The translations under genes and the position numbers were made by a program. This document shows positions 33,331 to 59,747 of a stretch of 64,000 nt of DNA, piece by piece. The notes under the pieces were generated by a model, which searched no databases, had not been told where the DNA came from, and saw nothing but the letters and a program-made list of their open reading frames with translations. Origin of the DNA: Ruminococcus sp. (GTDB lineage: Bacteria; Bacillota; Clostridia; Oscillospirales; Acutalibacteraceae); NCBI GenBank assembly GCA_017403985.1, contig JAFRDE010000012.1, forward strand, positions 17,742 through 81,741. Direction: 5' to 3'. How positions within the stretch are numbered: position 1 is the stretch's first letter; each line of letters begins with the position of its first letter.

Positions 33331-33380
33331 TGGTGCGCCCGACAGGATTTGAACCTGCACCCTTGCGGACCGGAACCTAA
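33331..33380 (-). pseudogene. tRNA-Leu(UAG) 3' half, split by the mobile element
   Basis: Minus strand from TTAGGT through TCCGG (3' anticodon stem), a Leu-type long variable arm, the T arm (CAGGTTCAAATCCTG) and CGGGCGC-A-CCA. No matching 5' half is adjacent. Joined to 59709-59747 at the shared TTAGGT it gives anticodon stem CCGGA/TCCGG, acceptor GCGCCCG/CGGGCGC and anticodon UAG, a complete class II tRNA-Leu. Confidence 0.93.
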
Positions 33381-33390
33381 TGGTAACGTC

Positions 33391-33402
33391 ACCTCGGTGG
33401 AA
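33391..33402 (-). repeat. Left-end inverted repeat of the element
   Basis: TTCCACCGAGGT on the minus strand, 10 bases inside the TTAGGT core; matched by 59691-59702 on the plus strand. Probable recombinase arm site. Confidence 0.85.
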
Positions 33403-33455
33403 GAATAATCTAAGTCAAAATCTCATATTACATCAGGTGCTTGTTGCCCAGCTTT

Positions 33456-33531
33456 TGGTGGCGCCTGCGGGATTTGAACCCTGCATTACCGGATTGAAAG
33501 CCCGGTGTCCTAACCATTAGACTAAGGCGTC
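33456..33531 (-). tRNA. tRNA-Glu(UUC)
   Basis: Cloverleaf with acceptor GACGCCT/AGGCGCC (one A-C mismatch), D arm with AATGGTTAGGAC, anticodon loop CTTTCAA (UUC), T arm GTTCAAAT with one stem mismatch, and encoded CCA. The mismatches suggest relaxed selection. Last of four tRNA genes at the left end, transcribed toward the tRNA-Leu 3' half. Confidence 0.88.
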
Positions 33532-33548
33532 ATATAAGGTTATATTTA

Positions 33549-33625
33549 TGGCGGCTCGGACGGGACTCGAACCCGCAACCTCCCGATAGACAGTCGGGTA
33601 TTCTGCTCATTTGAATTACCGAGCC
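33549..33625 (-). tRNA. tRNA-Asp(GUC)
   Basis: Acceptor GGCTCGG/CCGAGCC with G-CCA, anticodon loop CTGTCTA (GUC), T arm GCGGGTTCGAGTCCCGT. The D loop lacks the usual GG, and position 37 is U instead of a purine, so it is a divergent tRNA. Confidence 0.83.
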
Positions 33626-33630
33626 GTATG

Positions 33631-33705
33631 TGGTAGCTCCTGCGGGAATTGAACCCGCGTTTCCGGATTGAGAATCCGGCGTCGTAACCACTTGACTAAG
33701 GAGCC
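33631..33705 (-). tRNA. tRNA-Glu(CUC)
   Basis: Acceptor GGCTCCT/AGGAGCT, anticodon stem CCGGA/TCCGG around loop TTCTCAA (CUC), T arm CGGGTTCAATTCCCG, encoded CCA. Confidence 0.87.
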
Positions 33706-33710
33706 TTATT

Positions 33711-33785
33711 TGGTACTCCGGGATGGACTGGAACCAATCATCAAGCGATTATAAGTCGCTCGTTTTGCCTTTAAACTACCGGAGC
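33711..33785 (-). tRNA. tRNA-Ile(UAU)
   Basis: Acceptor GCTCCGG/CCGGAGT, anticodon stem GCGA/TCGC around loop CTTATAA, anticodon UAU (AUA codons), T-loop GTTCCAGTC, encoded CCA. Bacteria usually read AUA with a lysidine-modified CAU tRNA, so a UAU tRNA-Ile is uncommon. No clear promoter was seen; a TTGACA lies about 17 bases upstream of CATATG at its 5' edge but would start inside the tRNA. Confidence 0.87.
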
Positions 33786-33849
33786 ATATGCTCTCGTCTG
33801 TCCGAGATGTCAACCGTCTTTCCGATTTGCCGTGATATTGATAAACACT

Positions 33850-34077: not shown

Positions 34078-34126
34078 CTCTTTCACCTCCGAAAATTCAT
34101 ATTTGTCTGTTTTCAAGCACACAAAA

Positions 34127-34157
34127 ACCGCCTGCCCAACATGAGAGGCAGGCGGTG
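34127..34157 (-). terminator. Terminator hairpin between two small element genes
   Basis: CCGCCTGCC-TCTCATGTT-GGCAGGCGG followed by TTTTTGTG on the minus strand. Confidence 0.8.
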
Positions 34158-34175
34158 AATTTTCGCACGCAAAGG

Positions 34176-34310: not shown

Positions 34311-34354
34311 TTGAATTTCCTTTCCGAGGTCTTACCTCTCTGTTTTCTGTAATC

Positions 34355-34526: not shown

Positions 34527-35243
34527 TTACCGGTGTTTGTACAAAGATAAAACCGGGAAGTATTCATTCATACTGATGAACTTTTGATAATACAGTCTGT
34601 TTGTTTTTAGCGTAATATCAAATCTGTTTTTATTAAGCTCATATACTGTCGCTTTAAGTTTATCTGCGGAAGCAACGTCAAAGCCGTTTCGGTTAAAATA
34701 TGCAAGAGTGATGTGCGGCGTAAGATACGGATAAGGGCAAACCCTTACCTTGTTTATCGTATCATATATTTGTTGCAGCTTATTCCATTCGTTTCCATCG
34801 GCAGGAATCAAGGCGAGCACAAGGCTTGTGCTGACCATATTAATGATATAATTGGTTCTCATTCTTATTACCGTGATCTGTTGCGGCAAATCTCTGAGTA
34901 TACGCAATAATTTGATTTCGTTGCTGAAAACATCTGCCGCTATGTTTTCAAGCTCATCTGACGCGCTCAAATCGTGGAGCGTCAGATGAATAGTATCCGT
35001 TTTTATTTTCTCGCAAAAGCACTCGGGCGCGGCATTGTAAAGTGTTTTTATTTCTTTTTCAATTTTTGCCTTTGTGCGGCTGTCAAGGTCAAAAACGACC
35101 GTATCGCCGTAAAAAGGTTTAAAACGATTATCTTGATTAACCTTTTCAAATACTCTTTTGTCGGGCTTAAAAGAGCCTTCTCCGAGCTGTAATTCCGCCT
35201 GCTGATAGCTGATTCTTTTAATAAAATCTTTATAGGCTTCCAT
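34527..35243 (-). CDS. 2H phosphoesterase (LigT/CPDase superfamily)
   Basis: 238 residues from ATG 35241-35243 (MEAYKDFIKR) with AGGAGA upstream. The paired HxT motifs of the 2H superfamily are HLT at 86-88 and HIT at 177-179, the second in TPHITLAYF. These enzymes open 2',3'-cyclic phosphates at RNA ends or ligate RNA 2'-5'. It lies right after HD-Pnk and RNA ligase, so opening cyclic phosphates on cut RNA fits. Function from motif plus context, not measured. Confidence 0.82.
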   Translation of the reverse strand: MEAYKDFIKRISYQQAELQLGEGSFKPDKRVFEKVNQDNRFKPFYGDTVVFDLDSRTKAKIEKEIKTLYNAAPECFCEKIKTDTIHLTLHDLSASDELENIAADVFSNEIKLLRILRDLPQQITVIRMRTNYIINMVSTSLVLALIPADGNEWNKLQQIYDTINKVRVCPYPYLTPHITLAYFNRNGFDVASADKLKATVYELNKNRFDITLKTNRLYYQKFISMNEYFPVLSLYKHR

Positions 35244-35254
35244 TTTTCTATCTC

Positions 35255-36424
35255 CTAAACACAAATCCAATCAACCTCATGCGCCTCAAAGCGTTCGGGA
35301 GGGATCAGCTTTGAGAGCATCTTCTCTATTACATATCGAGGAACACAGTCATCTCTGCCGATATTTCTTCTGAGGTTTTCATTCCAGCTTGTTTCCAGAA
35401 ATACTACGCGGACATACGCCTTATAAGACATCCACAGACTAATCATCTTTGAACGGATATCGGGAGTAATATTTGTCGCATTAAAAACAAAATCCCGCTT
35501 TTTTCTCAGCATTTCTGTCATACGCGATTTCGCGATTCTTATTACTTCACTTTGACTGCCTATCGGAGGGATTCCGAATTCGGAGCGTATATCGTCGAGC
35601 GAAATCATTTTATAGTCAAAATAGCGTTCTTTGATAAACGTATCCTTTCCCGTACCGGGAAGACCGCATATCATAACAGCTCTGCACGCGCAGTCGTTAT
35701 AAAGTTCGGTATCTGGGGTAACGTTTTTCCCCGATAAATAGGCGTATTCCGTAAATGGTGACGAAAACACGGGCGGAACGTCAAAGCATGCAAGTTCCTC
35801 GGCAAGCTGAGCGCAAAGCTCGTGCTTTTCTGTGCCCATTGAATCTTCTTTACATAGTCTTCCGGACGAATCCGCGACGGAAAGAGCAGTCAGCAGCTTT
35901 ATTGAAAAATCAGGCGCTAGCTCGCCCGCAGAAGCTGTACGGATTATCCGTTTCTCTGAGTCCTTTGCTTCAAGCATATACGGCGGAGTCATATGATATC
36001 TCACCAGAAAACAAATGGTTTCTCTGAAGTTCTGTAAATCGGGCTCGCCGCACACACCATACTCTCTCCAGAGCATTTCCCGGACAAAGTTTGCGCCAAC
36101 CTCCGCGTGGCGCGGGGAATGCCAGTCTCCGTCCTCAAATCTTGTTGTACTCGCCTTTCCGATATCATGGAACAGCGCCGCCAAAAACAGCTCCTGCTGC
36201 TGTTTCTCGGAAAGGCTTCTAAATGTGTTTGAAGCGGCAAGGCTTTCACACACCATTTCGGTATGGACCCATACGTCGCCTTCAGCATGGTATTTCGGAC
36301 TCTGCTTTGTGTTTTTCAACGATTCAACAAACGGTCTCATGACAGTTCTTTTTATCATTGACCAATTAATAACATATTCCGGAGCTTCGGGAACAACGGC
36401 GATAAGCTCGTCAATTCTGTTCAT
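35255..36424 (-). CDS. HD-Pnk-like RNA/DNA end-healing enzyme (HD phosphoesterase + P-loop kinase)
   Basis: 389 residues. N-terminal HD phosphohydrolase domain with H54, HD at 86-87 (LFHDIGK) and D184; C-terminal kinase domain with Walker A GLPGTGKD at 254-261. This is the architecture described for Runella HD-Pnk, where the HD part removes 2',3'-phosphates and the kinase part phosphorylates 5'-OH ends. The start ATG lies inside the end of the RNA ligase gene (14-bp overlap, GAGG upstream), showing tight coupling. It would turn 2',3'-cyclic-P/5'-OH breaks into ends a ligase can seal. Confidence 0.88.
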   Translation of the reverse strand: MNRIDELIAVVPEAPEYVINWSMIKRTVMRPFVESLKNTKQSPKYHAEGDVWVHTEMVCESLAASNTFRSLSEKQQQELFLAALFHDIGKASTTRFEDGDWHSPRHAEVGANFVREMLWREYGVCGEPDLQNFRETICFLVRYHMTPPYMLEAKDSEKRIIRTASAGELAPDFSIKLLTALSVADSSGRLCKEDSMGTEKHELCAQLAEELACFDVPPVFSSPFTEYAYLSGKNVTPDTELYNDCACRAVMICGLPGTGKDTFIKERYFDYKMISLDDIRSEFGIPPIGSQSEVIRIAKSRMTEMLRKKRDFVFNATNITPDIRSKMISLWMSYKAYVRVVFLETSWNENLRRNIGRDDCVPRYVIEKMLSKLIPPERFEAHEVDWICV

Positions 36425-37223
36425 AACTCACCTCAAACAGCGAATCTATCGGAACGGCAAGCTTGTTTGGAACAATCGGTCGCTCAAGCCAATGGGTTTC
36501 GGACGCGTCAACAGTCTGCAAAAATGACGCGCGGACAAATTTCATTCTTTCAACAACCTCTCCGTTTTCCTCAACCTTAATATATAAGCCTTCCATCAGA
36601 TTTGAATTATCTGTTTCTCTGATTTGGCGCTCAACATCAAGACCAAACCTTTCACTTTCTTTTCTCAGATTTTCCAGATGCTTTTCTGTAATATAATTCG
36701 ACCTCCCCAACAGCTTAAGCAGCTCCTCTCTGCTCTGAAAAACGCCCCTTTTCAAAACAGGCACTGAGCACACGGGCAAATCCTTAATCAACTTGTATCT
36801 TGAGTCGGTATCGAGATATTTTCCGCTTTTTCTGTCAAAAATATCAAATTCCAGAAAGTAGTGTGGCAAAGCGTCGTAATAAACTGTGTGCTTAGCGTAA
36901 AGCCATTCGCCGTACATAATATAGCGCGAACCGAGAACACAATACAGGCTGTCTTTTTGAACGCTCGCCCATTGCTTTAATAGATTATAGTGCTTCTCTC
37001 TGTAACCGCCTTCAATGTAGTGCCCTCTGCTCTGAAGCAGCAGTTCACCGTCGGGTGAAAAAGAGATTGCGGTGTTCGCGCCGTCAACCTTTTCTTCCAC
37101 GACAATGTATTTTCCTTGTATGACCCTAAAAGGGATTTGTGATAAATCCTCGTCACCCGGCTGAAGGCGCGAGCCTTCAATATGCGGCGTACGGGGATAT
37201 TTAATTAATTTTAATTCTTCCAT
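36411..37223 (-). CDS. RNA ligase (nucleotidyltransferase superfamily)
   Basis: 270 residues, ligase core only. Motif I KVDG at 45-48 (Lys45 would carry AMP), then YGEWLYAKHTVYY (motif III region), MEGLYIKVE (motif IV) and MKFVR (motif V). The layout matches the RNA ligase family PF09414 (Rnl2/DRB0094-like). ATP-dependent joining of 3'-OH and 5'-phosphate RNA ends is expected. It starts just after the methyltransferase stop and overlaps HD-Pnk, so the three are one operon. Confidence 0.88.
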   Translation of the reverse strand: MEELKLIKYPRTPHIEGSRLQPGDEDLSQIPFRVIQGKYIVVEEKVDGANTAISFSPDGELLLQSRGHYIEGGYREKHYNLLKQWASVQKDSLYCVLGSRYIMYGEWLYAKHTVYYDALPHYFLEFDIFDRKSGKYLDTDSRYKLIKDLPVCSVPVLKRGVFQSREELLKLLGRSNYITEKHLENLRKESERFGLDVERQIRETDNSNLMEGLYIKVEENGEVVERMKFVRASFLQTVDASETHWLERPIVPNKLAVPIDSLFEVSYEQN

Positions 37224-37227
37224 AATT

Positions 37228-37908
37228 TTATTCTTTAGCCGCGGTCATAAACAAATGACCGTTCACACCGTTAAAATTCAGTTTCTTTGCTCCTGCCTCT
37301 GTAAACATCGCGGCGAGCTTGTTTTTGGTAAGTAAATGAATGTGTTCAGGATTATTGTCGGGCTTAGAAGGTACCGAGACAACAACATATCTCCTTGCAA
37401 GTCTGACAGCATTTGCGACTGCCTGCTCAACTTCGGGAATATGCTCCAAAACCTCGAGCATCGTGACAACGTCAAAGCTGCTGTCGGGAGCGTTCCAAGT
37501 GCAAATGTTCTCCTGCAACGCGTCAAGCCGCTCAATACCACCCCGACGAATCGTATTTAAAAAATCAATCCTGTGCGGTAAAATATCAAGAGCCGTAACC
37601 TCAGCGTACGGAAAGTCTATTAAAAAAGGGAACAGGAATACGCCCCTGCCGCTTCCGACATCGAGAAGGCTTTCGGGGTAAACCGCCTTAAGAAAACCCA
37701 TAGCCATCTTTACACGTGGCAAATCATCCTTCTCTTTGAAGCGATACATTTTTAAGCCCATACGATTGCCGTAATCAATTAACTTATTGATTTGATCATC
37801 TGACAATTGTTCCAGCGGAGCGTCAATGAGTCCTCTGCTCAAATCTCCGCCGTTTTTTATTACATATCCGCGGACATATGCCGCCGAAAGTTGTTGAAAT
37901 TCGGTCAT
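37228..37908 (-). CDS. Class I SAM methyltransferase, Hen1-like
   Basis: 226 residues. SAM-binding LLDVGSGRG at 81-89; then EVLEH at 152-156 with a histidine pair at 189 and 191 (EHIHLLT). The ExxEH ... H pattern matches the metal ligands of Hen1 RNA 3'-terminal 2'-O-methyltransferases. In bacterial Pnkp/Hen1 systems this methylation marks the repaired junction so that it cannot be cut again. The first ~70 residues are not typical Hen1. The methyltransferase call is firm; Hen1-type specificity is inferred from these residues and from the neighbours. Confidence 0.75.
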   Translation of the reverse strand: MTEFQQLSAAYVRGYVIKNGGDLSRGLIDAPLEQLSDDQINKLIDYGNRMGLKMYRFKEKDDLPRVKMAMGFLKAVYPESLLDVGSGRGVFLFPFLIDFPYAEVTALDILPHRIDFLNTIRRGGIERLDALQENICTWNAPDSSFDVVTMLEVLEHIPEVEQAVANAVRLARRYVVVSVPSKPDNNPEHIHLLTKNKLAAMFTEAGAKKLNFNGVNGHLFMTAAKE

Positions 37909-39070: not shown

Positions 39071-39087
39071 AACCCTTGTACTCCTTT

Positions 39088-39634: not shown

Positions 39635-42600
39635 CTATCTTTGCGAAATCGCTTTGTAAACCATTTGAAGAATCAAAATGATATTGTTCTTGACATAATC
39701 CGAAGGAGGATATACAAACAGCTCCTGCCAAACACCTGCCAGCAAAGCATCAAAAAATTCTGCGGTCAGGTTATCTTCATTGGTAATATCAATTTCGGAA
39801 TCGTCAATCAGCACTGATAATCTCAAAATCAAGTCTGTATAAATAGAATAGAATCCGCAAAGCATTGCAATACCCTTTGCCTGCGCGCCTGAATTGCGAT
39901 TTTTTATCTCTATCTGACTATGCAGAACATCCGCTCTGAACTCAGAGAGTATCTCGATTTCTTTCCTTTTGATATCGCCCGTCGAAATCAGCTCGCAGAA
40001 ACGTCTTGAGAACAATAGCATTTGGAGAATAAATCGGTTGCTCCAGCTTCCGTCCGCCTCAAGACTCTTCTTGATGCCGTCGCTTAACAGCATCAAATAG
40101 AACTGCCTGTCCGAATTTGCCGAAATTTCCGAAAAGCCGTGCAGGTAGAGCAGCCTTTCAAGTTCCTTGATGATTGCCAAGAAGAACCGCTTTGAATTGT
40201 TCAAATCGTCAAAGAGCAAATTGTTTACAAACTTATTCGACAAAGCGATAAATTCATCTCGGAATCCTTCGTTGTTCATAATAAAGTCAACGTTCGAGAT
40301 GTTTTCCAAGCCATCTCCGGAGGATTTGTATTCATACTTTGCACCGCTGTCTTTGACACCGCTCTTATTGATTCTGATTTTTATTGGTTTTTCCATTCCC
40401 TCGGTTCTTACGACCGCATCGCCCTGATTCAAGGCGGAAATGACAAATGACAGATCGTCCATCAAAAGCGACTTTTCGATCATTTCGATGTCTGTTTTGT
40501 TGTCAAGACGGTGAATGATCTTTGTGCTGGAATTGCTAACAACATCCTGTGATACCTTTCCGGGACTTTGATCAACTATGATAAAGCCCTCGCCATACGC
40601 ACGGATTTCCGCCATCATATTAGACAGAGTTTCCACAAGCTGCATTTCGGGAGCGGCAACCTCCTGATTGGAACTGTTTTGTCCGCTGTTCTTAAACAAT
40701 CTGTGAGCTTCTTCAACAACAACAATATGATTGAGTTTGTTATTCAATTTTTTTGAGTTTTTAACGCACTGGAAATACTGCATTATCAGCGAACCCATCA
40801 CTATGCTTTTATCGGCGTCGTCAGCTAAGCCGTCAAGTTCGATAACGTGCCTTGTATTGATCCAGCTTTCAAAAACAGGATGATTAGTTGTATTTAACAG
40901 TACTCCTTTTATGCCTGTTGTAAAAGATTTTAACCTTGACAGCAAAGCGCCCTGATAACTGCTTAACGATTCTCCCTGAAAATCGCTGTTATTAAGATAC
41001 AATTCAATTTCTTCGCACAAATCGCTGAACGTGGGATACAGATAGTCCTCGGGTACCAAATCCGCAAAAACATTAACGCTGTTTACAACATTCCAGCCTT
41101 TTTTTACATAGCAGTTATAAATGCACTGTTCAAGGATATTAGGCATAGCGGCGTAAAGCGAAAACGCAGAGCTGATGATTTTTTTGATCGCGTCCATATG
41201 GAAAGGCAGCGATCCCTCCGGCGGGAACCAGAACGGATTGAGCTGAATCACGCCGTCCTGCTGAGCGTTCATATGATGGATTTCCAAATCATCATATTTG
41301 TTTTTCAATATCTTATACTCGCTTTTGACCGGCTCGATAACCATAAACGGAACATCTGTCTGCTCGAGAATGCTGAAAACGGTATTGCTCTTTCCGCAGC
41401 CCGTCATACCGAACACCGACATATGTCTGTTCAGCTTGTTTCTGTCAATGCAGAATTGTCTGTCGGTTTGATTGGAATTCCAGTATATCTTTCCGAGCTC
41501 GAGGTCGCCCGTTTCATCCGGAGTGTTGACGGCAAGCTCCTCGTTTTTCTTTCTTTCAAAGCCCGGAAAATCAGACTTGGGCAGGCAGAAAAACTTTGAC
41601 GCGCTTCCGCAGGGAACTTCGGCGGCAAACTTTGCGGTCTTTCCGTCTATCCACCTAACCGCATAATCCTTTTTGGACAACGCCGTTGAGATGACCGAGG
41701 TGACGACCTGATAGTCCGCGTAGTTTTCGGCTTGGCAGAAAATCGAGATATTTTTCATACCGCCCGAAAGACCGCGGGTCAGTTCCTTTAATTCATCGTC
41801 AATAATATCGGAAAGTACTTTGACGACGGCGATACGGCTGAGCTGAGAAAGAGACGCGGATATGCTGTCTCCGTTGGTTGAACCGAAGGTCTTATGATTC
41901 GCCAGATTTTTGGGGTTAAAAGAACCCTTAACCTTGTTTTCGGATTCGTTTTCGGTACAGCCGATCGTGATATTCAGATTGAGGTTATTAATGGCTTCGA
42001 GCTCCTTTTGGAGTTCGGTAAGCTTTTTAATTTTTTCTTTGATAAAAAATTCCGATGTTTTATCCGCACTCAGCGTGACGCGGTATTTTCCGCGGATATC
42101 GGCGGCAATCAGCGCCGATATCCAATTAGTCAGCTCATTTTCGTTTTTTTGATTGTTTTTAGAGTAAAAGCATTTTGCGCTGCCCGAAAAGCTGTATTTT
42201 TCACCTACAAAGCTGCTTTTTTCAATACGCTCTGTTTCGGCATAATCGTTCCAAGCCATAAGCGCTGATTTTACAGCCTGCTCGGGCATATCTTTTCCTC
42301 CGCAAATAACTCCGGTTTCGTTTGCGTTCTTATGGAGTATCATCTCGAAGGAATCGTTTGAATTGACCAAGGTGTTAACGGAATTGTCAAGCCGTCTTAC
42401 ATCTTCATCTTCGGCATTGCCTGATCTTGACCAGAACTTGCCGATCTTTTTGAGCTTGTAGTAAAATTTGTTTCCTCCGGAAAAGCTTTCGTCATTTTCG
42501 AGCAGAGCATCTATAGTTTTTTTGATCAGCTTTGCCGAATCGTAATTATAAATATTCGTTTGCCCGTCCGGACTTGCAAAAGCATAGTACAGCGCTTCAA

Positions 42601-42658
42601 TATTAGTCGAATCAAAACCGTCTAACTGAAGAAAATCCAGTTTATTTATATCGATCAA
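39635..42658 (-). CDS. HerA-like ATPase, large
   Basis: 1007 residues. The ATPase core has Walker A FGMTGCGKS with Lys423 and Walker B VVVEEAHRLF near residue 648, typical of HerA/FtsK-like (DUF87) hexameric translocases. The N-terminal ~390 and C-terminal ~250 residues are not recognised. HerA-type proteins pump DNA and many are parts of anti-phage systems (with Sir2, NurA or DUF4297 partners), none of which is seen here. It overlaps the dynamin-like gene by 4 bases (ATGA). Last gene of the five-gene operon. Confidence 0.85.
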   Translation of the reverse strand: MIDINKLDFLQLDGFDSTNIEALYYAFASPDGQTNIYNYDSAKLIKKTIDALLENDESFSGGNKFYYKLKKIGKFWSRSGNAEDEDVRRLDNSVNTLVNSNDSFEMILHKNANETGVICGGKDMPEQAVKSALMAWNDYAETERIEKSSFVGEKYSFSGSAKCFYSKNNQKNENELTNWISALIAADIRGKYRVTLSADKTSEFFIKEKIKKLTELQKELEAINNLNLNITIGCTENESENKVKGSFNPKNLANHKTFGSTNGDSISASLSQLSRIAVVKVLSDIIDDELKELTRGLSGGMKNISIFCQAENYADYQVVTSVISTALSKKDYAVRWIDGKTAKFAAEVPCGSASKFFCLPKSDFPGFERKKNEELAVNTPDETGDLELGKIYWNSNQTDRQFCIDRNKLNRHMSVFGMTGCGKSNTVFSILEQTDVPFMVIEPVKSEYKILKNKYDDLEIHHMNAQQDGVIQLNPFWFPPEGSLPFHMDAIKKIISSAFSLYAAMPNILEQCIYNCYVKKGWNVVNSVNVFADLVPEDYLYPTFSDLCEEIELYLNNSDFQGESLSSYQGALLSRLKSFTTGIKGVLLNTTNHPVFESWINTRHVIELDGLADDADKSIVMGSLIMQYFQCVKNSKKLNNKLNHIVVVEEAHRLFKNSGQNSSNQEVAAPEMQLVETLSNMMAEIRAYGEGFIIVDQSPGKVSQDVVSNSSTKIIHRLDNKTDIEMIEKSLLMDDLSFVISALNQGDAVVRTEGMEKPIKIRINKSGVKDSGAKYEYKSSGDGLENISNVDFIMNNEGFRDEFIALSNKFVNNLLFDDLNNSKRFFLAIIKELERLLYLHGFSEISANSDRQFYLMLLSDGIKKSLEADGSWSNRFILQMLLFSRRFCELISTGDIKRKEIEILSEFRADVLHSQIEIKNRNSGAQAKGIAMLCGFYSIYTDLILRLSVLIDDSEIDITNEDNLTAEFFDALLAGVWQELFVYPPSDYVKNNIILILQMVYKAISQR

Positions 42659-49153: not shown

Positions 49154-49489
49154 TTAGACTAAGTTTTTTATGCTATTTATTAAATCGTCCATTTCTTCAA
49201 ATACGACTTCTACGATGATTGACCAGTTAATTCCATCATAATCGTGAACCAATCTGTGGCGTAAACCTGAGACTACGCTCCACGGAATATCGGGGTGTGC
49301 TTTTTTGAATTCGGGATTGAGCATATACACCTGCTCGCCGATATTATACAGTGGCGTTGTAACCGCCCATTGAGAGAACTCATCGTTCAAAAGCAATTCT
49401 CTTGTAATGTGATGTTCGTCCACTTGCTTTTGAATAGAAGTCCACGTATTTACAATCTTTTTGATGCGTTCTTTATCGGAAATCTTCAT
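49154..49489 (-). CDS. hepT: HepT-like HEPN toxin (DUF86)
   Basis: 111 residues. The HEPN ribonuclease motif R-x4-H is present as RHRLVHDYDG (~86-95). HepT is the RNase or otherwise toxic partner of MntA-type nucleotidyltransferases, which neutralise it by AMPylation. Its ATG overlaps the mntA stop (ATGA). Some HEPN toxins cut tRNA or mRNA, which is interesting next to RNA-repair genes. Confidence 0.88.
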   Translation of the reverse strand: MKISDKERIKKIVNTWTSIQKQVDEHHITRELLLNDEFSQWAVTTPLYNIGEQVYMLNPEFKKAHPDIPWSVVSGLRHRLVHDYDGINWSIIVEVVFEEMDDLINSIKNLV

Positions 49490-49776
49490 GCGATTTTAAC
49501 TCCTTCTTTCATAAGGTTATCATAAAAAGGAGTGTCCTTGTTGACTTCGCTGATTTCAAATACATCCGCGTTTTTGCCAAGCGCTTCACGCAATTCCTCT
49601 GCAAAGGCAAAGATATTTGATTTCTTAAAATTCTCTCCGCCGAAAACGACAACATCAATATCGGAATCGGGAGTTTCCTCGCCACGAGCATATGAACCGA
49701 AAAGGAGAGCGTATTCGGCATTATAGCGAACAAGCAAATATTTAATTGTTTTTTCGATATCTAATCTTGTAGGCAA
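49486..49776 (-). CDS. mntA: MntA-like nucleotidyltransferase antitoxin
   Basis: 96 residues beginning at TTG 49774-49776 with AAGGAG upstream. The minimal nucleotidyltransferase signature GSYARGEETPDSDIDVVVF (GSxxRG ... DxD) is complete. It is first in the two-gene operon with hepT. Autorepression is plausible because the promoter spacer is palindromic. Confidence 0.9.
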   Translation of the reverse strand: MPTRLDIEKTIKYLLVRYNAEYALLFGSYARGEETPDSDIDVVVFGGENFKKSNIFAFAEELREALGKNADVFEISEVNKDTPFYDNLMKEGVKIA

Positions 49777-50033: not shown

Positions 50034-50870
50034 TTATAATAATTGTTTCAGTTTTTCATGGAGTGAATAGCGCGAAACGCCGTTGCTTTGAGGGTCGCGA
50101 ATAATGACAGAATCGAGCTCTTTCGGCAGCCACTTCTTGCTGAAATTGCCGTTGCCAAAGTACGCGTCGATATTTGTTATTGGTAAAACGACCTTGTCTG
50201 TATCATCAGGCTTGTTGACGATATAATACTTTACCAACAGTTCGGCGGATCGGGCGGAGGAAGTCAAAACGTTCTTCTGAATATAATCTTTTATACCGTC
50301 AGGAAGAGAAAAATCGTTATTCTTTAATTTGCCCAATTCCAGTGCATCTGCCAGAATATCATCAAAACGCAATATCCACGAGCCTTTGGTTGACGATGAA
50401 AAAATCGGAACCTGAAATCGGATAACTTTCTTTTCCCATTCCTTGTCAAAGCCCTTTTTCAGCGTATCACATTTTTTGATGGCCGTTTTACTGACGGAAT
50501 CTGGATCACATTTGACAAAATCACAGATGTTGTGAACATGACGGTAAAACCAACCGCAGCCGTCTTTATCAACCAATTCGGGGAAGATATCATAAAGCTC
50601 ACTGAAATTGGTGTTTGCTTTCCAATCGTCTTTCTTTTCTGTCGGTAAGCTGCACCACGCCTGCAACGCACACCTTGTGCGTTCAATATCTGGCGTATCG
50701 GTCGCATACATATAACCTCGCGCAATGTTCGTCAGAACTCTGTGCAGCCCGATTTGTTTTATCAGCATATCAAAGGTGAACCTCCCGAGAAATGACATAT
50801 CACGTTTGCCGTTAGCATTGTACTTCGGGAATTGCGTATATGCCTTGAATTCTTCGATTTCATTCAGCAT
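50034..50870 (-). CDS. Hypothetical partner of the DFDGD polymerase-like protein
   Basis: 278 residues, soluble, start ATG overlapping the end of the polymerase-like gene by about 11 bases. No recognised motif; mixed helical composition, with a C-terminal part ending VSRYSLHEKLKQLL. Translational coupling suggests it works with the 1000-residue protein. Confidence 0.7.
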   Translation of the reverse strand: MLNEIEEFKAYTQFPKYNANGKRDMSFLGRFTFDMLIKQIGLHRVLTNIARGYMYATDTPDIERTRCALQAWCSLPTEKKDDWKANTNFSELYDIFPELVDKDGCGWFYRHVHNICDFVKCDPDSVSKTAIKKCDTLKKGFDKEWEKKVIRFQVPIFSSSTKGSWILRFDDILADALELGKLKNNDFSLPDGIKDYIQKNVLTSSARSAELLVKYYIVNKPDDTDKVVLPITNIDAYFGNGNFSKKWLPKELDSVIIRDPQSNGVSRYSLHEKLKQLL

Positions 50871-53862
50871 TTCGTTTCACCGCCAATACATGAGAATAAA
50901 CCGCGTCGGGCAGTAGCTCCCACAGCAAATCGCGCTTTCCGAGCGCCACCACATACGGCACCGCCTTTTTCGGTTTTGTGATTTTATCCATTAACCCTCG
51001 GCACGCAACGGCAACCGCTTGCCTATAGCTTTGCGCGTGAGATTTATTCAAATATGCCTGCATCATTTCTGTAAACTCCTTCGAGTCGTTTGACCGGAGG
51101 AGTTTTTTTCGTTCTGTTGCATTGTTTTCGTCATCAATGTCACAGATCAGGTCACCGAGCACACGGTAACCTCCAAAGCGGAAATCTGCAAGTAAATCGA
51201 AATATTCCTCGTATTCGGAAAGATAATCCGTCAGGAAATCGCGCCGCGTATCCTTGTCCATCAAATGCCATGACTGATTTGTCAGTTCACCACGGATTGA
51301 CGACATTCTCTCAGGTGATAGCTTTGAAAACTCAGCGTAGAGAGCGTCGCTATCGATCAAATCTTCCTGCCCGCGTGAATACAAAATACGGTCGATATCA
51401 TTCTGCCTTGATTTATTCTTGATCGGTGCGCGGCAGGCGCGGATTCGGGATAAAACCGCCTCGTATTGCTGTAACAAAAACCCAACAAAAAATAAAATAT
51501 CCGCGTCTAAGCTATCCTTCCAATCAGGCTTGACGGCAAATGTGAACAGCTCGCTGTCCTTTGCAGGCTTTGGATTCAGACGTTTTGTATGTTCCTTTAA
51601 TTGCTTCGCAAGATAAGGCAACCGCTCTACGTTTGAGGTCACCTTGCTCCAATCGGTAGATTCAAAAAAGTTCTTGATTTTCTTTTGCGGCGAATCCTCG
51701 TACCAAGCGTGATTCCGGTCAAGCTCCAACAGGGATTTGTATTTAAGAAACAGATTGTGCGCTCTGCGCTCCTTAACAAGATATTCCGTCAAATCAGGCT
51801 TCACACCGCTTTTCGCCGAATCAATCTCCAAGCCTGTCAGAATCGACAGCACCTCCGTTTGCTGACGGCAGCGCTCGCGCTCCTCTGCGTCGGAGTTTTC
51901 ATCGTAGGCAATAATGCTCCTGTCAAACGCCGCGTTGCAGATTTGTCCGACGCGCGAGGAAAAAGTATCTCTCACGGTCACAAAACGTTCATACCAGTCG
52001 TTGGCATTTCGGGTGACAGGTTCTTCCGAAGGAATATACAGGAGCGGAAGATTGCTGCGGTCATTCAGGTCGTCATATTCATAATTTCGCTTGACGCATT
52101 CGTTAAGAAGGTTATCGGCAATCGTTTTTATCATATCGCCGTCGAAATCCGCGCCGCCCAAACGCTGTGCCGCAAGGCTCTCTGGGTCAATCATCACCAC
52201 ATCCGTTAGTTTTGAAAGATAATGATTTCTCATATTGGTTGACTTGCCGTATAGTTTTAGCTGAATCTCCTCGTTGCGCGCGATATGCGGATTGCGCAGA
52301 AGCGTGCAAACCGCGTCGGCATCATAGGACGCTCCCGGTGAGTAAAAGCTGTTTTTGTTAAATCTCTCGGTCATTGCAACCGACCAAAATGTTCTTTCCT
52401 TACGGTTGCGTTTTGCTCCGTTGTCAATCAAAAAAATCAGCAGGTCGAGAATATCATCGGAGAGAAAACGGTTGTCGCCTTTTACGAGCAGCCTTCCCAG
52501 ACTGTATTGCCGAATCAGCTTGTCGGCATTGTCGTTGAGCTCTTTTACGCAGGCTTTTTCATTGACGAATAAAGGATTCTTTTTCATACATTTGCCAAGA
52601 GCAATATTTTTATCAATAAAATACTGCCTGCGGAAATCTTCATTTTGACAGAAATCAAAATACCGCTGCTCGGTTGTTTTGGTAATCCATTCTCTTTTGT
52701 CATCAGAAGGACTGCTCTTCCAACCGTCGGGCAAATCGGCAGGACGGAATTCTTCCGCAGTCATAGACAACGTATTCAAAAACTGATAGTTGAGCTCCGT
52801 GTGATTGTCGGGCTTTACCTTGCTGACGTTCGTGATGTAGAGCGCGTGATTGTATTTCTCGAATACGCGCAGATAATCGTTCCAATCCATCCCGTTTTCT
52901 GTCAGCCAGCCATAGCCCTTGAACATACTTTGCGTAAGAATAATATCAACGTCATCAACCGGATGACGGACGCCCCAAATATCGGTAATATACTTTGAGC
53001 CTGCACTGAAAAAGAAATCATGAAAATGAACTTCGTGCAGCATACCCTTGACAAACGGCATACGGATTTGAAAGGAATGATGAATATGTTTGCCGCAAAA
53101 TATTTTATCAATGATTCCGGCAAGCTCCTTTGAAATCAAGCCCTCGCCGTCATGGCGTAGGACGGTAATATCCCTCACATCTACTTTTCGGGAATACTTT
53201 TTGACAGCCTCATTAGCGCCGTCTCCCTCTACCGTAATGACTTTTGTTCGAGCGCGGTAGGTTTCGTTTTTTACGACAATCACGCGGTGAGGTTTTGCTA
53301 AATTGATTCCGTCGATCCGAACACCGCCCGAGAGCATCAATCCATTGTAAGCGTAGAGCTTAGAGAGCTGACAGTTGCCCACTTCCATATCAAGCATGAT
53401 CCGTCTGCGCACTTCATCATGAACATCAGCGCGGATAAACGACAGCTTCGCCTGACGGCTCATACTGCCCGAACGCTCAAAGGCGAGGTAACGGTGAGCG
53501 CCGTTTCCAAAGTCCAATGTTATTCCTTCAGGACGGAACATTGATTCCGCCTTTTTCTGCCGTTCCAACATCTTCGGAGAACTGCCTCTGTCAAATATTC
53601 CGTTGAAGTCAACATAGAATATGACATCCTGCAAATCTGCCAAAGCCATCTCGTTTTTCGGCGGTTCAATATTTTGCCTTTTCAGAACGCACATCGTCTG
53701 ATAAAACAACGCGTTATCATCCTGTTCGTCGGCAGCATCACGCATAATACATTTCCGTGTATCAATCATACTGAGTCGAAATGAATACTGTTCGTTTTCC
53801 AACCGCGCATAGCTGATGATAGCACGGGCAGAAAGCGTGTGAATCATATATCTGACATTCAT
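50860..53862 (-). CDS. Single-subunit RNA polymerase-like protein (RdRP/YonO-type double-psi barrel)
   Basis: 1000 residues. GGADFDGD places the catalytic aspartates at D572, D574 and D576, the DxDGD signature shared by multisubunit RNAP beta-prime, eukaryotic-type RdRPs and phage YonO. RNPHIARNEE about 50 residues upstream and DVVMIDPESLAAQ just before it match the RdRP/YonO order (RNP ... DVVV ... GxDxDGD). Other domains are not recognised. It could be a primer-making polymerase for element replication, a transcription enzyme, or an RdRP. It is divergent from the DUF927 gene, and the two may act together in replication. Confidence 0.75.
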   Translation of the reverse strand: MNVRYMIHTLSARAIISYARLENEQYSFRLSMIDTRKCIMRDAADEQDDNALFYQTMCVLKRQNIEPPKNEMALADLQDVIFYVDFNGIFDRGSSPKMLERQKKAESMFRPEGITLDFGNGAHRYLAFERSGSMSRQAKLSFIRADVHDEVRRRIMLDMEVGNCQLSKLYAYNGLMLSGGVRIDGINLAKPHRVIVVKNETYRARTKVITVEGDGANEAVKKYSRKVDVRDITVLRHDGEGLISKELAGIIDKIFCGKHIHHSFQIRMPFVKGMLHEVHFHDFFFSAGSKYITDIWGVRHPVDDVDIILTQSMFKGYGWLTENGMDWNDYLRVFEKYNHALYITNVSKVKPDNHTELNYQFLNTLSMTAEEFRPADLPDGWKSSPSDDKREWITKTTEQRYFDFCQNEDFRRQYFIDKNIALGKCMKKNPLFVNEKACVKELNDNADKLIRQYSLGRLLVKGDNRFLSDDILDLLIFLIDNGAKRNRKERTFWSVAMTERFNKNSFYSPGASYDADAVCTLLRNPHIARNEEIQLKLYGKSTNMRNHYLSKLTDVVMIDPESLAAQRLGGADFDGDMIKTIADNLLNECVKRNYEYDDLNDRSNLPLLYIPSEEPVTRNANDWYERFVTVRDTFSSRVGQICNAAFDRSIIAYDENSDAEERERCRQQTEVLSILTGLEIDSAKSGVKPDLTEYLVKERRAHNLFLKYKSLLELDRNHAWYEDSPQKKIKNFFESTDWSKVTSNVERLPYLAKQLKEHTKRLNPKPAKDSELFTFAVKPDWKDSLDADILFFVGFLLQQYEAVLSRIRACRAPIKNKSRQNDIDRILYSRGQEDLIDSDALYAEFSKLSPERMSSIRGELTNQSWHLMDKDTRRDFLTDYLSEYEEYFDLLADFRFGGYRVLGDLICDIDDENNATERKKLLRSNDSKEFTEMMQAYLNKSHAQSYRQAVAVACRGLMDKITKPKKAVPYVVALGKRDLLWELLPDAVYSHVLAVKRNAE

Positions 53863-56132: not shown

Positions 56133-56450
56133 ATGAAAAAACAAGCGAAAACAAAAATTCTCTCCTGCCGTGTCACGCCCGAGCAGAGAGAAATGATTGA
56201 AGAAAAGGCGTATTCTTCCTACCGAACGCCGAGCATGTATCTGCGTGACTGCGCGCTTGACAAGAAGATCGTTGTCATAAACGGCATCGACGAGCTCACG
56301 GTTGAGCTGAGAAGAATCGGCAACAATCTCAACCAACTAACGCGCGCGGTCAACTCCGGTTACGCTTACGAGGTTGATTTGCGCGAGACGAGAGAGGAGG
56401 TAGCACGGATATGGCAATCGTTAAATTCGCTCCTGCAGGAAGTCCGCTGA
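56133..56450 (+). CDS. mobC: MobC-family relaxosome accessory protein
   Basis: 105 residues; GGAGG nine bases upstream. N-terminal ribbon-helix-helix-like part (ILSCRVTPEQREMIEEKA) and the family signature RRIGNNLNQLTRAVNSG. MobC opens DNA at oriT for the relaxase. Its end overlaps the relaxase start by 40 bases. Confidence 0.9.
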   Translation: MKKQAKTKILSCRVTPEQREMIEEKAYSSYRTPSMYLRDCALDKKIVVINGIDELTVELRRIGNNLNQLTRAVNSGYAYEVDLRETREEVARIWQSLNSLLQEVR

Positions 56451-57391
56451 ACAATATTTTTGATTATGTCATGCGCGACGAAGCGACAGAGGACAAGCTC
56501 ATCAGCGGTGTGAACTGTTCTCCCGAGAGCGCTCTCGATGAATTCCGGTTCGTCAAGAAGCGTTTTCACAAGGAGGACGGCAGGAGTTACTACCACATCG
56601 TTCAGTCATTCTCGCCCGACGACGACCTCACTCCCGAGACGGCTCACGAGATCGGCTTGAAATTTGCGGAGTACTTTCCGGGCTTTCAGATCGTTGTCGC
56701 CACGCACGTTAACACCAATGCCATCCACAACCACCTGATCATGAACAGCGTCAACTACGAGAACGGCAAGATGTTTCACCAGAGCCGCAACGAAATGCTG
56801 CAGGCAAAGGAGTACTCTAATCAGCTCTGCCGTGAATATGGTCTAAGCGTTACCGAGGTCAAAACGAAGAATCCGCGGCACGCAAAATGGAAACGTGACC
56901 TGCTTCAAGTCGCGGAATATGCTCTCGGACACTCCTCGACGAAAGAAGAATTCATCGATTATATGCGTTATCACGGCTACGATGTGCAGTGGGAGGACAA
57001 GTATAAATATATCACTTTCACCTCGCCGGAGGGCTGGAAGGTGCGAGACAACAAGCTCTTTGACGAGCGGTTCCTCAAGGATAACCTCGAAATATATTTT
57101 GCCTTGGGCGGCTGCGACAGCGCGATAATCGACCCGTACTTCGACTACGTTACACCGAATCACCCTGACTGCTATACCATGACGTACAGCGACGGTCTGA
57201 TCAATCTCCTTGGTGATTTGCTCTCAACCGTGCCCGATGATTACTATTATCAGCCGCAGTATATCGATGAAATGAGTACGGCAGAAAAAGAAAGAATCGA
57301 AAAAATCCTCGGAAGAAGGATCTGCAACGAGGCGTTTTACACCTACTGTACCCGTGAGGACTACGAGCGCGAGCAGGGAATTTCTATGTAA
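56411..57391 (+). CDS. mobA: MobA/VirD2-family relaxase
   Basis: 326 residues. The relaxase domain has a candidate catalytic tyrosine at Y19 (IFDYVMR) and the histidine triad H99, H106, H108 in THVNTNAIHNHLIMN. It nicks oriT and pilots the strand into a recipient. Shorter than many relaxases (no primase part). Transfer would need conjugation genes from a helper. Confidence 0.92.
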   Translation: MAIVKFAPAGSPLNNIFDYVMRDEATEDKLISGVNCSPESALDEFRFVKKRFHKEDGRSYYHIVQSFSPDDDLTPETAHEIGLKFAEYFPGFQIVVATHVNTNAIHNHLIMNSVNYENGKMFHQSRNEMLQAKEYSNQLCREYGLSVTEVKTKNPRHAKWKRDLLQVAEYALGHSSTKEEFIDYMRYHGYDVQWEDKYKYITFTSPEGWKVRDNKLFDERFLKDNLEIYFALGGCDSAIIDPYFDYVTPNHPDCYTMTYSDGLINLLGDLLSTVPDDYYYQPQYIDEMSTAEKERIEKILGRRICNEAFYTYCTREDYEREQGISM

Positions 57392-57514
57392 AAAATCTAT
57401 CAAATGAAAGGATTGATGACAAATATGAATCGGTTTGATTTCAGAATCTACTACCATATTATCAGAATTATAAAAACAATTCGCCGACTTTACTACGGCG
57501 GGGAAAGGAGTTAT

Positions 57515-57676
57515 ATGGCGAGAAACGCTGATCCGATTATTATTTCCACGGTTGAATTCGACTACATCGGAACCGATGAGCAGTTCAACACGTTCTTGAA
57601 ATCCGTAGTCAAAGACTACATTTCCGAAAACAATTTACTGCCGGACGAGGATTTTTGTTTGGAAAAATCTGCGTAA
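57515..57676 (+). CDS. Small hypothetical element protein
   Basis: 53 residues from ATG 57515 (MARNADPIII) with AAAGGAG just upstream. The frame stays open to 57404, so a 90-residue form is possible. IISTVEFDYIGTDEQFNTFL has no recognised family. It lies between the relaxase and the recombinase. Confidence 0.6.
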   Translation: MARNADPIIISTVEFDYIGTDEQFNTFLKSVVKDYISENNLLPDEDFCLEKSA

Positions 57677-57771
57677 TTTGTCTGGATATTCAATAAAAAC
57701 TGTGATATGTTGTGGTTGCACAGAGGTAGCGCGACCACAACATTCACGCGAGAAACGAAAGGAGAATACAC

Positions 57772-59379
57772 ATGAGAGTATGGTTATACTACCGTTTGTC
57801 ACGCGACGATGACGCTGAGCAGAACTCGCTGACAAACCAAAGAAATATTTTAGTAGAGTACGCAAAAGCACGCAATCATCAAATCGTCGGAGAATCCTTT
57901 GATGATAACGTCAGCGGAATGACCTTCGAGCGCGAAGGCATTGAGAAAATCTATGAGCAGTTCGATAAGAAATCTATCGACGCGGTAGTCGTCAAAGACC
58001 TGTCGCGGCTCGGCAGACACCGAACACAGACGATGGTTTTCATCGACGAGCTGCGCCGTCATAATATCCGCGTGCTGTCGGTTACGGAAAACATCGACTC
58101 ATTCAACGAAGCGGACGATTTGACGATCGGCTTCAAGGGAATCATCAATGATATGTACTGCAAGGATACCTCGCGCAGAATCGCTGCCGGCTATCTTCAA
58201 AAGCAGCGTGAGGGAATCGTCTTGTCCGTTCCGCTCGGTTATTTCAAGGACAAAAACACCGACGAGGTCGTCATTATTGAGGAAGAAGCAGAGATCGTCA
58301 GAAGGATTTACGACCTCTACCTGCAAGGCTACGGTCTGAAAAGTATTGCAGATAAGCTCAATTCAGAGGGAGTCAAATCACCGCTTTACTACCAAACAAC
58401 GAAACTGAAAAAGAAACCAATGCGCACTGCGCCGAAAATCACCAAGCGGTTTCTGTGGAACGGTACGACGGTCAAACGAGTCTTAACCAACGAGTTTTAC
58501 AAAGGAACGCTCGTCTGTCACAAAACACACACTAATAAAATATATCATACCCGCGAAGTGCTTCCTGTTGAGGAAAACTTTGTGCATGAGGATTTTGTAC
58601 CTGCTATCATTTCAAAAGAGAAATGGGAGCAGGTACAAACTATTTTTGAGCAGAAAAAGAAGAATGTCAGAGCGAGCTCAGGCAAACCCTGTCACCGTTA
58701 TACCGGACTGCTTCGCTGCGAGGAATGCGGCTGTAACTTTGTATGTAAAATCAGACGTTGGGCTGGATTGCCTGACCGTTACGAGTACAACTGCACCAGT
58801 TATCACCGCTACGGCAAGAATTATTGCACGCCTCACAGGATAAATGAATCTATGCTCGACGAACTGATTTACAAGGAATTGTTATCCATAAAGGATAGGG
58901 CAATTGCAAATTATCAGTCCATTGAAACCGACGTCAAGCGGTGGATGAAATCGAAAAGCAATGTCAGCAACAAGCTTGATGAACTGGACAGGACGCTCCG
59001 TCAGCGCATGACTGACCAAGAAGGAATCCTGCTCGAACGCATCCGCGACAAAGAACATACTGAGATTTACACGCGTATGTTGAAGCTCTGTGAGGATGAT
59101 ATCAAGCGGTTGAAAAAGGAAATCGCCGCCATAACCGACTACAGCGCGACCATCAAAAAGCGCAAGGCAGAGTTGAAAGAGAGCGTCGATCTAATTGAGC
59201 AAATCATTCAGGAAGGTGCTATCAGCGACGCCAACCTCCGATTGCTGGTAGACAGTATCGTTATCTCAGAAAAAGATAAAAAGCTCCACATCAAAATCAA
59301 CCTCAACGCCAAATTTGATTGTCATAAAGATTGCTATGATACGGAGGGAAATTTGACGGAGAGAATGTTTATTGCATAA
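57772..59379 (+). CDS. Large serine recombinase, probable integrase of the element
   Basis: 535 residues. Resolvase catalytic domain with the nucleophile S10 (YYRLSRDDD) and VKDLSRLGRH; recombinase domain; zinc-ribbon cysteines CEECGCNFVC and later C residues (~322-365); coiled-coil segment (~400-490). AAAGGAG precedes the ATG. It lies close to the right end, like TnpX/TndX-type integrases. Insertion in a tRNA anticodon loop by this class is unusual. It should excise the element through the TTCCACCGAGGT-flanked ends. Confidence 0.93.
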   Translation: MRVWLYYRLSRDDDAEQNSLTNQRNILVEYAKARNHQIVGESFDDNVSGMTFEREGIEKIYEQFDKKSIDAVVVKDLSRLGRHRTQTMVFIDELRRHNIRVLSVTENIDSFNEADDLTIGFKGIINDMYCKDTSRRIAAGYLQKQREGIVLSVPLGYFKDKNTDEVVIIEEEAEIVRRIYDLYLQGYGLKSIADKLNSEGVKSPLYYQTTKLKKKPMRTAPKITKRFLWNGTTVKRVLTNEFYKGTLVCHKTHTNKIYHTREVLPVEENFVHEDFVPAIISKEKWEQVQTIFEQKKKNVRASSGKPCHRYTGLLRCEECGCNFVCKIRRWAGLPDRYEYNCTSYHRYGKNYCTPHRINESMLDELIYKELLSIKDRAIANYQSIETDVKRWMKSKSNVSNKLDELDRTLRQRMTDQEGILLERIRDKEHTEIYTRMLKLCEDDIKRLKKEIAAITDYSATIKKRKAELKESVDLIEQIIQEGAISDANLRLLVDSIVISEKDKKLHIKINLNAKFDCHKDCYDTEGNLTERMFIA

Positions 59380-59518
59380 ATACAGCTTGGCAGACGCGAA
59401 ACAATGCAACCATTTTTATTGTAAGATATACACAAATACCTCAAATGGTATTTGTTGAACACTTACCAAACTTCGTAACATGCAGATAACGAGTCTGCCA
59501 AGATTTTTAGCAATGAAA

Positions 59519-59556
59519 AAAGCCCAAAAAGCCAGTGTTTATCAGCTTTTTGGGCT
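59519..59556 (-). terminator. Terminator of the element tRNA-Leu
   Basis: AAGCCCAAAAAGC and GCTTTTTGGGCTT around TGATAAACACTG, followed by TTTTTTCA on the minus strand, right after the tRNA 3' end. Confidence 0.85.
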
Positions 59557-59641
59557 TGGTGCGGGTAACAGGACTTGAACCTGCACGGAGTATTCCGCAA
59601 GAACCTAAATCTTGTGCGTCTGCCAGTTCCGCCATACCCGC
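59557..59641 (-). tRNA. Element-borne tRNA-Leu(UAG)
   Basis: Class II tRNA with acceptor GCGGGTA/TACCCGC, anticodon stem CAAGA/TCTTG around TTTAGGT (UAG), a long variable arm, T arm CAGGTTCAAGTCCTG and encoded CCA. Same anticodon as the split gene but a different body. It lies inside the element, 68 bases downstream of the stranded tRNA-Leu 5' half, so the chromosomal promoter at 59858 can transcribe it. This makes it a likely replacement for the disrupted tRNA. Confidence 0.95.
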
Positions 59642-59690
59642 ATTTCTAAAAATCAGGTCGTGAAACCCGAAGTTATTACATATTCAATTT

Positions 59691-59702
59691 TTCCACCGAG
59701 GT
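59691..59702 (+). repeat. Right-end inverted repeat of the element
   Basis: TTCCACCGAGGT on the plus strand, six bases inside the TTAGGT core copy. Matches the left end. Confidence 0.85.
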
Positions 59703-59708
59703 ATCGTC

Positions 59709-59747
59709 ACCTAAATCCGGCGCGTCTGCCAATTCCGCCACGGGCGC
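59709..59747 (-). pseudogene. tRNA-Leu(UAG) 5' half, split by the mobile element
   Basis: Acceptor 5' strand GCGCCCG, D arm GGCGGAATTGGCAGACGC, anticodon stem CCGGA and loop TTTAGGT; the sequence then leaves the tRNA. The 3' half is 26.3 kb away at 33331-33380. Confidence 0.93.

Follow-up and report, generated by a model that had tools for sequence, protein, structure and literature searches.

In a 64,000-nucleotide (nt) stretch of a Ruminococcus sp. genome, referred to here as the window, a host tRNA-Leu(UAG) gene is split in its anticodon loop and its two halves are separated by 26,328 bases. The intervening DNA carries, right at one end, a complete tRNA-Leu of the same isoacceptor and is filed as an integrative and mobilizable element (IME), with a predicted recombinase and relaxase of its own. 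It is very probable, from the comparisons presented here, that a serine-recombinase IME broke the tRNA-Leu(UAG) gene and supplied the replacement. Related elements appear to have split tRNAs in other gut bacteria, leaving trails of broken tRNA halves. The initial annotation of the window had correctly described the split gene, and our results support the interpretation that it gave.

A split tRNA-Leu gene and its empty site

The split gene and the replacement tRNA lie on the minus strand. The features at the two ends are, in window coordinates:

59858..59886, minus strand: putative chromosomal promoter of the split gene, matching 12 of 12 positions of the sigma-70 consensus
59709..59747, minus strand: stranded 5′ half of the host tRNA-Leu(UAG), ending with the shared core TTAGGT (59714-59709); no tRNA according to ARAGORN
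59642..59708, minus strand: 67-nt spacer, comprising the right attachment arm (GACGATACCTCGGTGGAA...) and, at 59670-59653, a leader hairpin; related elements conserve both arm and spacer
59557..59641, minus strand: replacement tRNA-Leu(UAG) of the element (ARAGORN; Rfam RF00005)
59520..59557, minus strand: terminator-like hairpin after the replacement tRNA, 15 pairs and a T run
33381..33402, minus strand: left attachment arm (TTCCACCGAGGTGACGTTACCA), of the same form at the left ends in genomes G035, G021, G209, G015 and G088
33331..33380, minus strand: stranded 3′ half of the host tRNA-Leu(UAG), starting with the shared core

Both halves and the shared TTAGGT lie where the initial annotation had placed them. 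Joined at this core, they form a complete 83-nt tRNA-Leu(UAG) that is recognised by ARAGORN, with perfectly paired acceptor and anticodon stems, also as predicted, and an encoded CCA. The suggestion that the halves might come from different tRNA genes fails, since the two fit together perfectly as a single tRNA. At both junctions ARAGORN detects no tRNA; the gene is thus restored at neither end, in agreement with the earlier claim. The inverted repeat TTCCACCGAGGT, reported just inside both ends, was located at 59691-59702 (plus strand) and 33391-33402 (minus strand). Intact tRNAs of relatives of the same genus are 95% (G035), 92% (G017 and G012) and 89% (G006) identical to the joined sequence, which makes a chance origin of the split gene unrealistic.

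The uninterrupted tRNA-Leu that the initial annotation expected in close relatives is present, with window-like flanks, in G012 and G017. The upstream side of their intact gene matches the window over 71 bases (59778-59709, of which 39 are tRNA) at 90% and 86% identity respectively; downstream, besides the tRNA 3′ half, the flank matches in stretches between 33380 and 33095 at 75-79%. Judged by this homologous flank on both sides of an intact gene, the two genomes hold the empty site. A MutS gene adjoins the locus in the window and lies on other contigs in G012 and G017, so that the synteny shown is confined to the near flanks. MutS synteny was also tried as a route to the empty site and rejected: the MutS loci of 29 relatives were without any tRNA, and the joined tRNA was a better query.

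The crossover site

The left ends of the window element and of those in G035, G021, G209, G015 and G088 read ...CC(A/T) TT AGGTTC. The left-end pattern matched seven genomes; the match in G011, with three mismatches, was set aside from its letters alone. Typical stranded 5′ halves, called stubs below, read ...T TT AGGT and are followed by the right arm. The simplest reading is an exchange at the TT dinucleotide, tRNA positions 33-34, the second of which is the wobble base. For tRNA-Leu(CAG) genes TC is expected at the crossover, as had been noted beforehand, and the sole CAG left end found (G249) reads ...ATCA TC AGGTCC. The joined arms are near-palindromic around the dinucleotide, at 16 to 18 of 22 positions in four elements (the arms of G209 are on different contigs). 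Such near-palindromes are expected of paired serine-recombinase half sites, and those observed are consistent with recombination on paired attachment sites by an enzyme of predicted activity. A wobble base inside the crossover dinucleotide could account for the tendency of UAG and CAG elements to stay with their own isoacceptor.

The replacement tRNA and its promoter

The replacement tRNA-Leu(UAG) is located near the stub, as the initial annotation had stated, with a gap of 67 rather than 68 nt. It is 99% identical to the replacement tRNAs of G015 and G021 and 71% identical to the split gene of its own host, which suggests that it travels with the element. In G088 the replacement and the split gene are identical. 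The distance between stub and replacement is nearly constant, at 67-70 nt in many relatives.

The chromosomal promoter is intact, as claimed, and consists of TTGACA, a spacing of 17 nt and TATAAT. It is the sole promoter-like site reported in 59400-59950; at a looser threshold of 9 of 12 consensus positions, shuffles of this region average 1.3 sites. No promoter-like site was reported in the 67-nt spacer. Because the spacer has no such site and the chromosomal promoter matches perfectly, capture is favoured, and the replacement is most likely driven by the captured chromosomal promoter. The terminator described behind the element tRNA corresponds to the 15-pair terminator-like hairpin (59557-59520). 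As for the broader claim of the initial annotation, that the element breaks a tRNA and supplies a substitute from a captured promoter, the split and the same-isoacceptor replacement recur in two further elements, but expression from that promoter is probable rather than certain, and a terminator-like hairpin (59670-59653) lies in its path.

This hairpin is part of a wider pattern. In 15 of 15 spacers compared, a hairpin of varying sequence ends 6 to 19 nt before the tRNA, although it exceeds simple shuffles at the 5% level in just six of the 15, and several have no T run. We take it to be a leader structure; our guess is that the spacer with its hairpin may keep the replacement tRNA and the stub from pairing with each other.

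Related elements

Nineteen recombinase loci were counted (about 55% identity or more over the part present, the remnants in G035 and G021 being excluded), and 17 of them carry a tRNA-Leu on the same locus. At the two exceptions the contig breaks off soon after the recombinase gene, within 0.4 kb in L119 and 1.4 kb in L223. Three more distant relatives that were examined, L120 and L121 (both 32%) and L237 (52%), have no tRNA-Leu in the available locus DNA. Two further elements are complete, one of about 22 kb in G088 and one of about 21 kb in G249. In both, the outer halves join into tRNAs accepted by ARAGORN and the replacement is of the same isoacceptor and at the same end: UAG for UAG in the window and G088, CAG for CAG in G249. 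In the recombinase tree, the CAG recombinases (two, plus one with unknown target, 94/99) fall among the UAG ones, although with such distant outgroups the root is placed with little certainty. No recombinase relatives were found in viral contigs; a phage collection and a plasmid collection yielded 14 and 30 records, each below 60% identity.

Stubs and whole-gene replacement

Stubs were searched for by script at 37 loci, chosen for the recombinase, the stub pattern or tRNA similarity, and 48 tRNA-Leu 5′ stubs were found in 32 sources. An intact tRNA on the same strand follows within 2.5 kb in 42 of the 48, and it is a leucine tRNA in every case. These 42 pairs comprise 25 of UAG to UAG, seven of CAG to CAG, six that match with a decayed stub loop and four that do not match; 38 of 42 thus agree in isoacceptor. 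Five of the remaining six stubs have no downstream tRNA in the available DNA, and the last has one 2,519 bases away.

A pattern screen of the family (up to three mismatches) gave matches in 28 of 398 genomes. Nine proved on reading to be intact tRNAs, and the script confirms 18 of the 19 left (not G139); the reversed-pattern control gave zero among the matches listed. With a stricter pattern, the order-level screen matched 10 of 394 genomes. Eight of the ten lie outside the family, and among these eight G661 proved to have an intact tRNA. This leaves seven stubs from four other families, each followed by a tRNA-Leu(CAG), and stub and tRNA-Leu pairs therefore occur in several families of the order.

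Pairing between tRNA halves was examined in 24 of the 42 pairs. Within the intact tRNA, the 5′ and 3′ halves match at all 288 of 288 stem positions; when the 5′ half is taken from the stub instead, 254 of the 288 positions pair, and 15 of the 24 combinations contain mispairs. Since the stub half mispairs in these 15 and the replacement's own halves always pair, whole tRNAs came in.

Stub arrays and decay

Stubs can occur in rows. In G035 four stubs precede one intact tRNA, with a recombinase remnant after it, and in G293 four CAG stubs stand in a row; such arrays of up to four suggest serial replacement. G035 also has one lone 3′ half with homologous chromosomal flank, on another contig. A pattern search for lone 3′ halves matched nothing, known ones included, and was abandoned. 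In G021 a unit of about 1.7 kb has both ends, a tRNA and DNA like the HepT region of the window element, and no recombinase inside.

The recombinase was looked for (E 1e-60 or better) in 17 of the 19 family genomes with stubs and is present in five (in G293 on another contig). We read the recombinase-less stub genomes as products of decay, which would leave a stub and a replacement and make the element tRNA the resident gene; other recombinases or incomplete assemblies are the alternatives.

Does the host need the replacement?

Among the class-II-length tRNA hits of the assembly, tRNA-Leu with anticodons CAA, CAG and GAG are present and no tRNA-Leu(UAG) lies outside the element. CUA codons number eight in the 6,118 codons of ten window open reading frames (ORFs) outside the element. 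The initial annotation had proposed that the host depends on the element. For as long as the element stays in place the host should depend on it, but the old gene would come back on precise excision. Dependence would become lasting after decay of the element, a state suggested by the stub-bearing genomes with no detected recombinase.

Proposed mechanism and alternatives

The steps would be as follows. A large serine recombinase inserts its IME into the host tRNA-Leu(UAG) gene, at the anticodon loop. The only sequence common to element and target is TTAGGT, with probable exchange at positions 33-34, too little to rebuild the gene, so that insertion breaks it. The element brings in a complete tRNA-Leu of that isoacceptor, right at one end, and its arrival places this replacement in line behind the promoter of the broken gene, its most likely driver. 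As the replacement retains the anticodon-loop target, later elements could insert into it in turn, and decay of an element would leave a stub and the replacement as the resident gene. The sequence itself shows the split gene, the empty site, the replacement, the conserved arms, the recurrence and, for most pairs, a matching isoacceptor; that this recombinase is the catalyst, where exactly exchange occurs, that the captured promoter drives expression, that the replacement is needed and in what order the arrays grew are inferred.

Several observations weigh against this scheme. The isoacceptor does not match in four of the 42 stub/tRNA pairs, nor in one of the seven order-level pairs (a UAG-type stub before a tRNA-Leu(CAG) in G464), and in nine of the 24 pairs tested stub and replacement resemble each other so closely that whole replacement and half exchange look the same. 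With nested insertions, as many as four lone 3′ halves would be expected in G035; one was found. At a cut-off of E 1e-60, no recombinase was detected in 12 of the 17 family genomes with stubs that were searched. The best recombinase match in the phage and plasmid collections, on a Subdoligranulum plasmid (52%), has no tRNA-Leu or recognisable arms within 10 kb (21.6 kb read). The hairpin at 59670-59653, terminator-like though weaker than that behind the tRNA and not mentioned in the initial annotation, lies between the promoter and the replacement tRNA. Finally, tRNA-Leu(UAA) is missing from the assembly, which indicates that the assembly is incomplete for tRNAs.

Could the split tRNA be an error of assembly, or could one contig hold two tRNA fragments that have nothing to do with each other? 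The genome is assembled in 63 contigs, and the right junction is also found on contig C42; C62 and C42 are 99.99% identical over 7,270 bases (56731-64000), to the end of the window. We take this as one locus assembled twice; alternatively, two strain variants might diverge inside the element. (C42 starts inside the relaxase gene.) Against an artefact stand the perfect complementarity of the halves, the meeting of both flanks in relatives and the same arrangement in independently assembled genomes, which together make it hardly credible. That the tRNA is carried for codon supply or for protection against tRNA-cutting defences, its location being incidental to the insertion site, would agree with the further Glu, Asp, Glu and Ile tRNAs and the RNA-repair-like cluster of the window element. 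However, the other element loci that were scanned showed none of these further tRNAs, and the other complete elements match the split isoacceptor with a same-isoacceptor replacement at the same end; we regard this explanation as very unlikely.

The two remaining alternatives concern parts of the scheme and are less easily set aside. Arrays may have grown mainly by capture of small cassettes or exchange of 5′ halves, and not by serial insertion and decay of whole elements. The single genes found between some stubs, the shortage of lone 3′ halves in G035, the stub genomes with no recombinase and the 1.7-kb unit of G021 all point this way, but the mispairing of stub 5′ halves, the constant pairing of the replacement's own halves and the three complete elements point the other, and on balance we find it unlikely. 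Slightly better placed, though still doubtful, is a promoter inside the element with none captured: a terminator-like hairpin lies on the path from the chromosomal promoter to the tRNA, and a mycobacteriophage tRNA has its own promoter according to the available part of the report (PMC10865867). The 67-nt spacer contains no reported promoter-like site, and recurrence of the hairpin in other sequence, in several cases with no T run, makes a shared termination role unlikely. Serine-recombinase insertion with a whole, promoter-capturing replacement is our preferred explanation.

Passenger genes between stubs

Seventeen of the longer spacers, between stubs or between stub and tRNA, were picked from maps for passenger ORFs. 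Twelve hold an ORF of at least 100 amino acids (aa); the other five have no ORF of 60 aa. The longest passenger ORF has the same orientation as the tRNA in 11 of the 12 and the opposite one in L182. Homologous passengers are found at different loci, both between genera (52% identity for G035 and G422, 57% for G021 and G293) and within a genus (65% for G035 and G001, 97% for G355 and G405). One passenger family is a 23S-rRNA-intervening-sequence protein.

Because passenger genes are co-oriented and homologous across loci, an integron-like reading suggests itself, although it is not established: the tRNA-Leu locus might be a platform for gene capture, where serine recombinases stack elements and small recombinase-less units, each with a gene and a replacement tRNA, behind one tRNA promoter. 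We offer this tentatively and think it improbable rather than probable. If true, the captured genes would form an integron-like array, and transcription through them would be maintained by the essential tRNA at its far end.

Gene content of the element

The other predicted features of the element are:

57772..59379, plus strand: large serine recombinase, 535 aa, with Pfam Resolvase, Recombinase and Zn_ribbon_recom domains in one protein
57404..57676, plus strand: 90-aa protein upstream of the recombinase, with no Pfam match; a homologue adjoins the recombinase in relatives
56411..57391, plus strand: relaxase, 326 aa (PF03432, E 5.4e-38)
50860..53862, minus strand: cargo, RNA-dependent RNA polymerase (RdRP)-like protein, 1000 aa (PF05183, E 1.1e-11)
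50034..50870, minus strand: cargo, 278-aa RdRP partner with no Pfam or NCBIfam match
49486..49776, minus strand: cargo, 96-aa ORF adjoining the HepT-like gene
49154..49489, minus strand: cargo, HepT-like gene (PF01934)
42655..45330, minus strand: cargo, dynamin-like protein (PF00350)
39635..42658, minus strand: cargo, HerA-like ATPase (PF01935; PADLOC HerA)
35255..37908, minus strand: cargo, RNA-repair-like cluster with HD and polynucleotide-kinase-like AAA_33 domains, RNA ligase and methyltransferase (PF13671, PF01966, PF09414, PF08241)
33456..33785, minus strand: tRNA-Glu(UUC), Asp(GUC), Glu(CUC) and Ile(UAU), just inside the left end (ARAGORN, Rfam)

Solved relatives of the recombinase include TnpX, YokA and the TP901-1 integrase. 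Together with the relaxase, the 90-aa protein, which we would guess to be a candidate directionality factor, and a small ORF, it forms a backbone that is common, wholly or partly, to related elements. Among 20 window ORFs scanned with Pfam, small ORFs lying outside the scan, there was no conjugation-machinery domain, no tyrosine integrase and no phage structural domain.

The RdRP-like gene has an adjacent homologue of the 278-aa gene in seven of eight other RdRP loci compared, the eighth being cut by a contig end. Several of these pairs have unrelated recombinase or relaxase neighbours, and RdRP relatives occur in 13 of 200 family genomes (this one included) and on one IMG/VR contig. A literature search on this cargo returned nothing judged specific to it. 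The 96-aa ORF and the HepT-like gene presumably form a toxin-antitoxin-like pair. The RNA-repair-like cluster, which with an extra 247-aa protein (no Pfam match) spans 34527-37908 on the minus strand, may possibly mend cut tRNAs. Of the four tRNAs inside the left end, tRNA-Ile(UAU) is unusual in bacteria, and the UUC anticodon of tRNA-Glu was not met elsewhere among the anticodons read for this genome, a subset of the hits.

Related loci carry other defence genes: Thoeris-like proteins at L224 and L117, AbiLi-like ATPases in G088 and G249, and a dCTP-deaminase-like protein in G249. Genome G293 has, next to its four-stub CAG array, Gabija-like GajA and GajB as well as a gene resembling a type II restriction enzyme (L179:2136-7225). 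Elsewhere in the window, and unrelated to the element, Rfam identifies a chromosomal T-box leader (3810-4073, minus strand) and a SAM riboswitch (19334-19429, minus strand).

Significance and relation to known systems

These data suggest that tRNA genes can be natural targets of serine recombinases and that a partial tRNA gene in these bacteria can be an insertion scar. They also illustrate how an essential host gene could be permanently exchanged for a mobile-element copy, each exchange being recorded as a stub, and a crossover over the wobble base would provide a simple rule for the choice of isoacceptor.

Integrons hold single co-oriented genes in a row behind a fixed promoter, and their hallmarks are the IntI tyrosine integrase and attC cassettes. 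The likeness is confined to the arrays, with their co-oriented single genes behind a fixed promoter; the units described here end in tRNA halves, the last one carrying a whole tRNA, and the family recombinase is of the serine type.

With serine-recombinase IMEs such as Tn4451 the element shares a serine recombinase and relaxase, a very short shared core and Firmicute hosts. In the available part of a review of IMEs (PMC5704250), site-specific serine-recombinase IMEs disrupt dispensable genes; the element here, in contrast, appears to break a tRNA gene and supply a replacement. Tandem insertions, a tRNA-gene target and the anticodon-loop sublocation are also features of the tRNA-gene islands described, in the part available, for Islander (PMC4383910, 2014); serine recombinases are said there not to be known for tRNA-gene targets. 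In such islands a fragment restores the gene and the integrase is of the tyrosine type, whereas here neither junction holds a tRNA. A survey of large serine recombinases (PMC10083194) has, in its main text as available, no word starting with "tRNA".

The closest precedent is the tRNA-dependent lysogeny of mycobacteriophages (Guerrero-Bustamante and Hatfull 2024, PMC10865867). As described in the available part of that report, these temperate phages insert into a tRNA gene by tyrosine integrases through a short core that does not rebuild the tRNA, and carry a tRNA of the same isotype with its own demonstrated promoter; its authors speculate that the carried tRNA could be a second target. We recognised no serine-recombinase version of this strategy in the open-access literature, although subscription papers may hold one. 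Insertion into a tRNA gene, a short non-rebuilding core and a replacement tRNA of the same kind are common to both systems. Unlike the phages, the element has a large serine recombinase and a relaxase, with no phage genes among the scanned proteins; its promoter is probably captured, and stub arrays occur in nature. Breaking a tRNA and bringing a new one would thus be a strategy not only of phages with tyrosine integrases: it would also be used with a serine recombinase, by mobilizable elements that carry defence genes in several families of one order.

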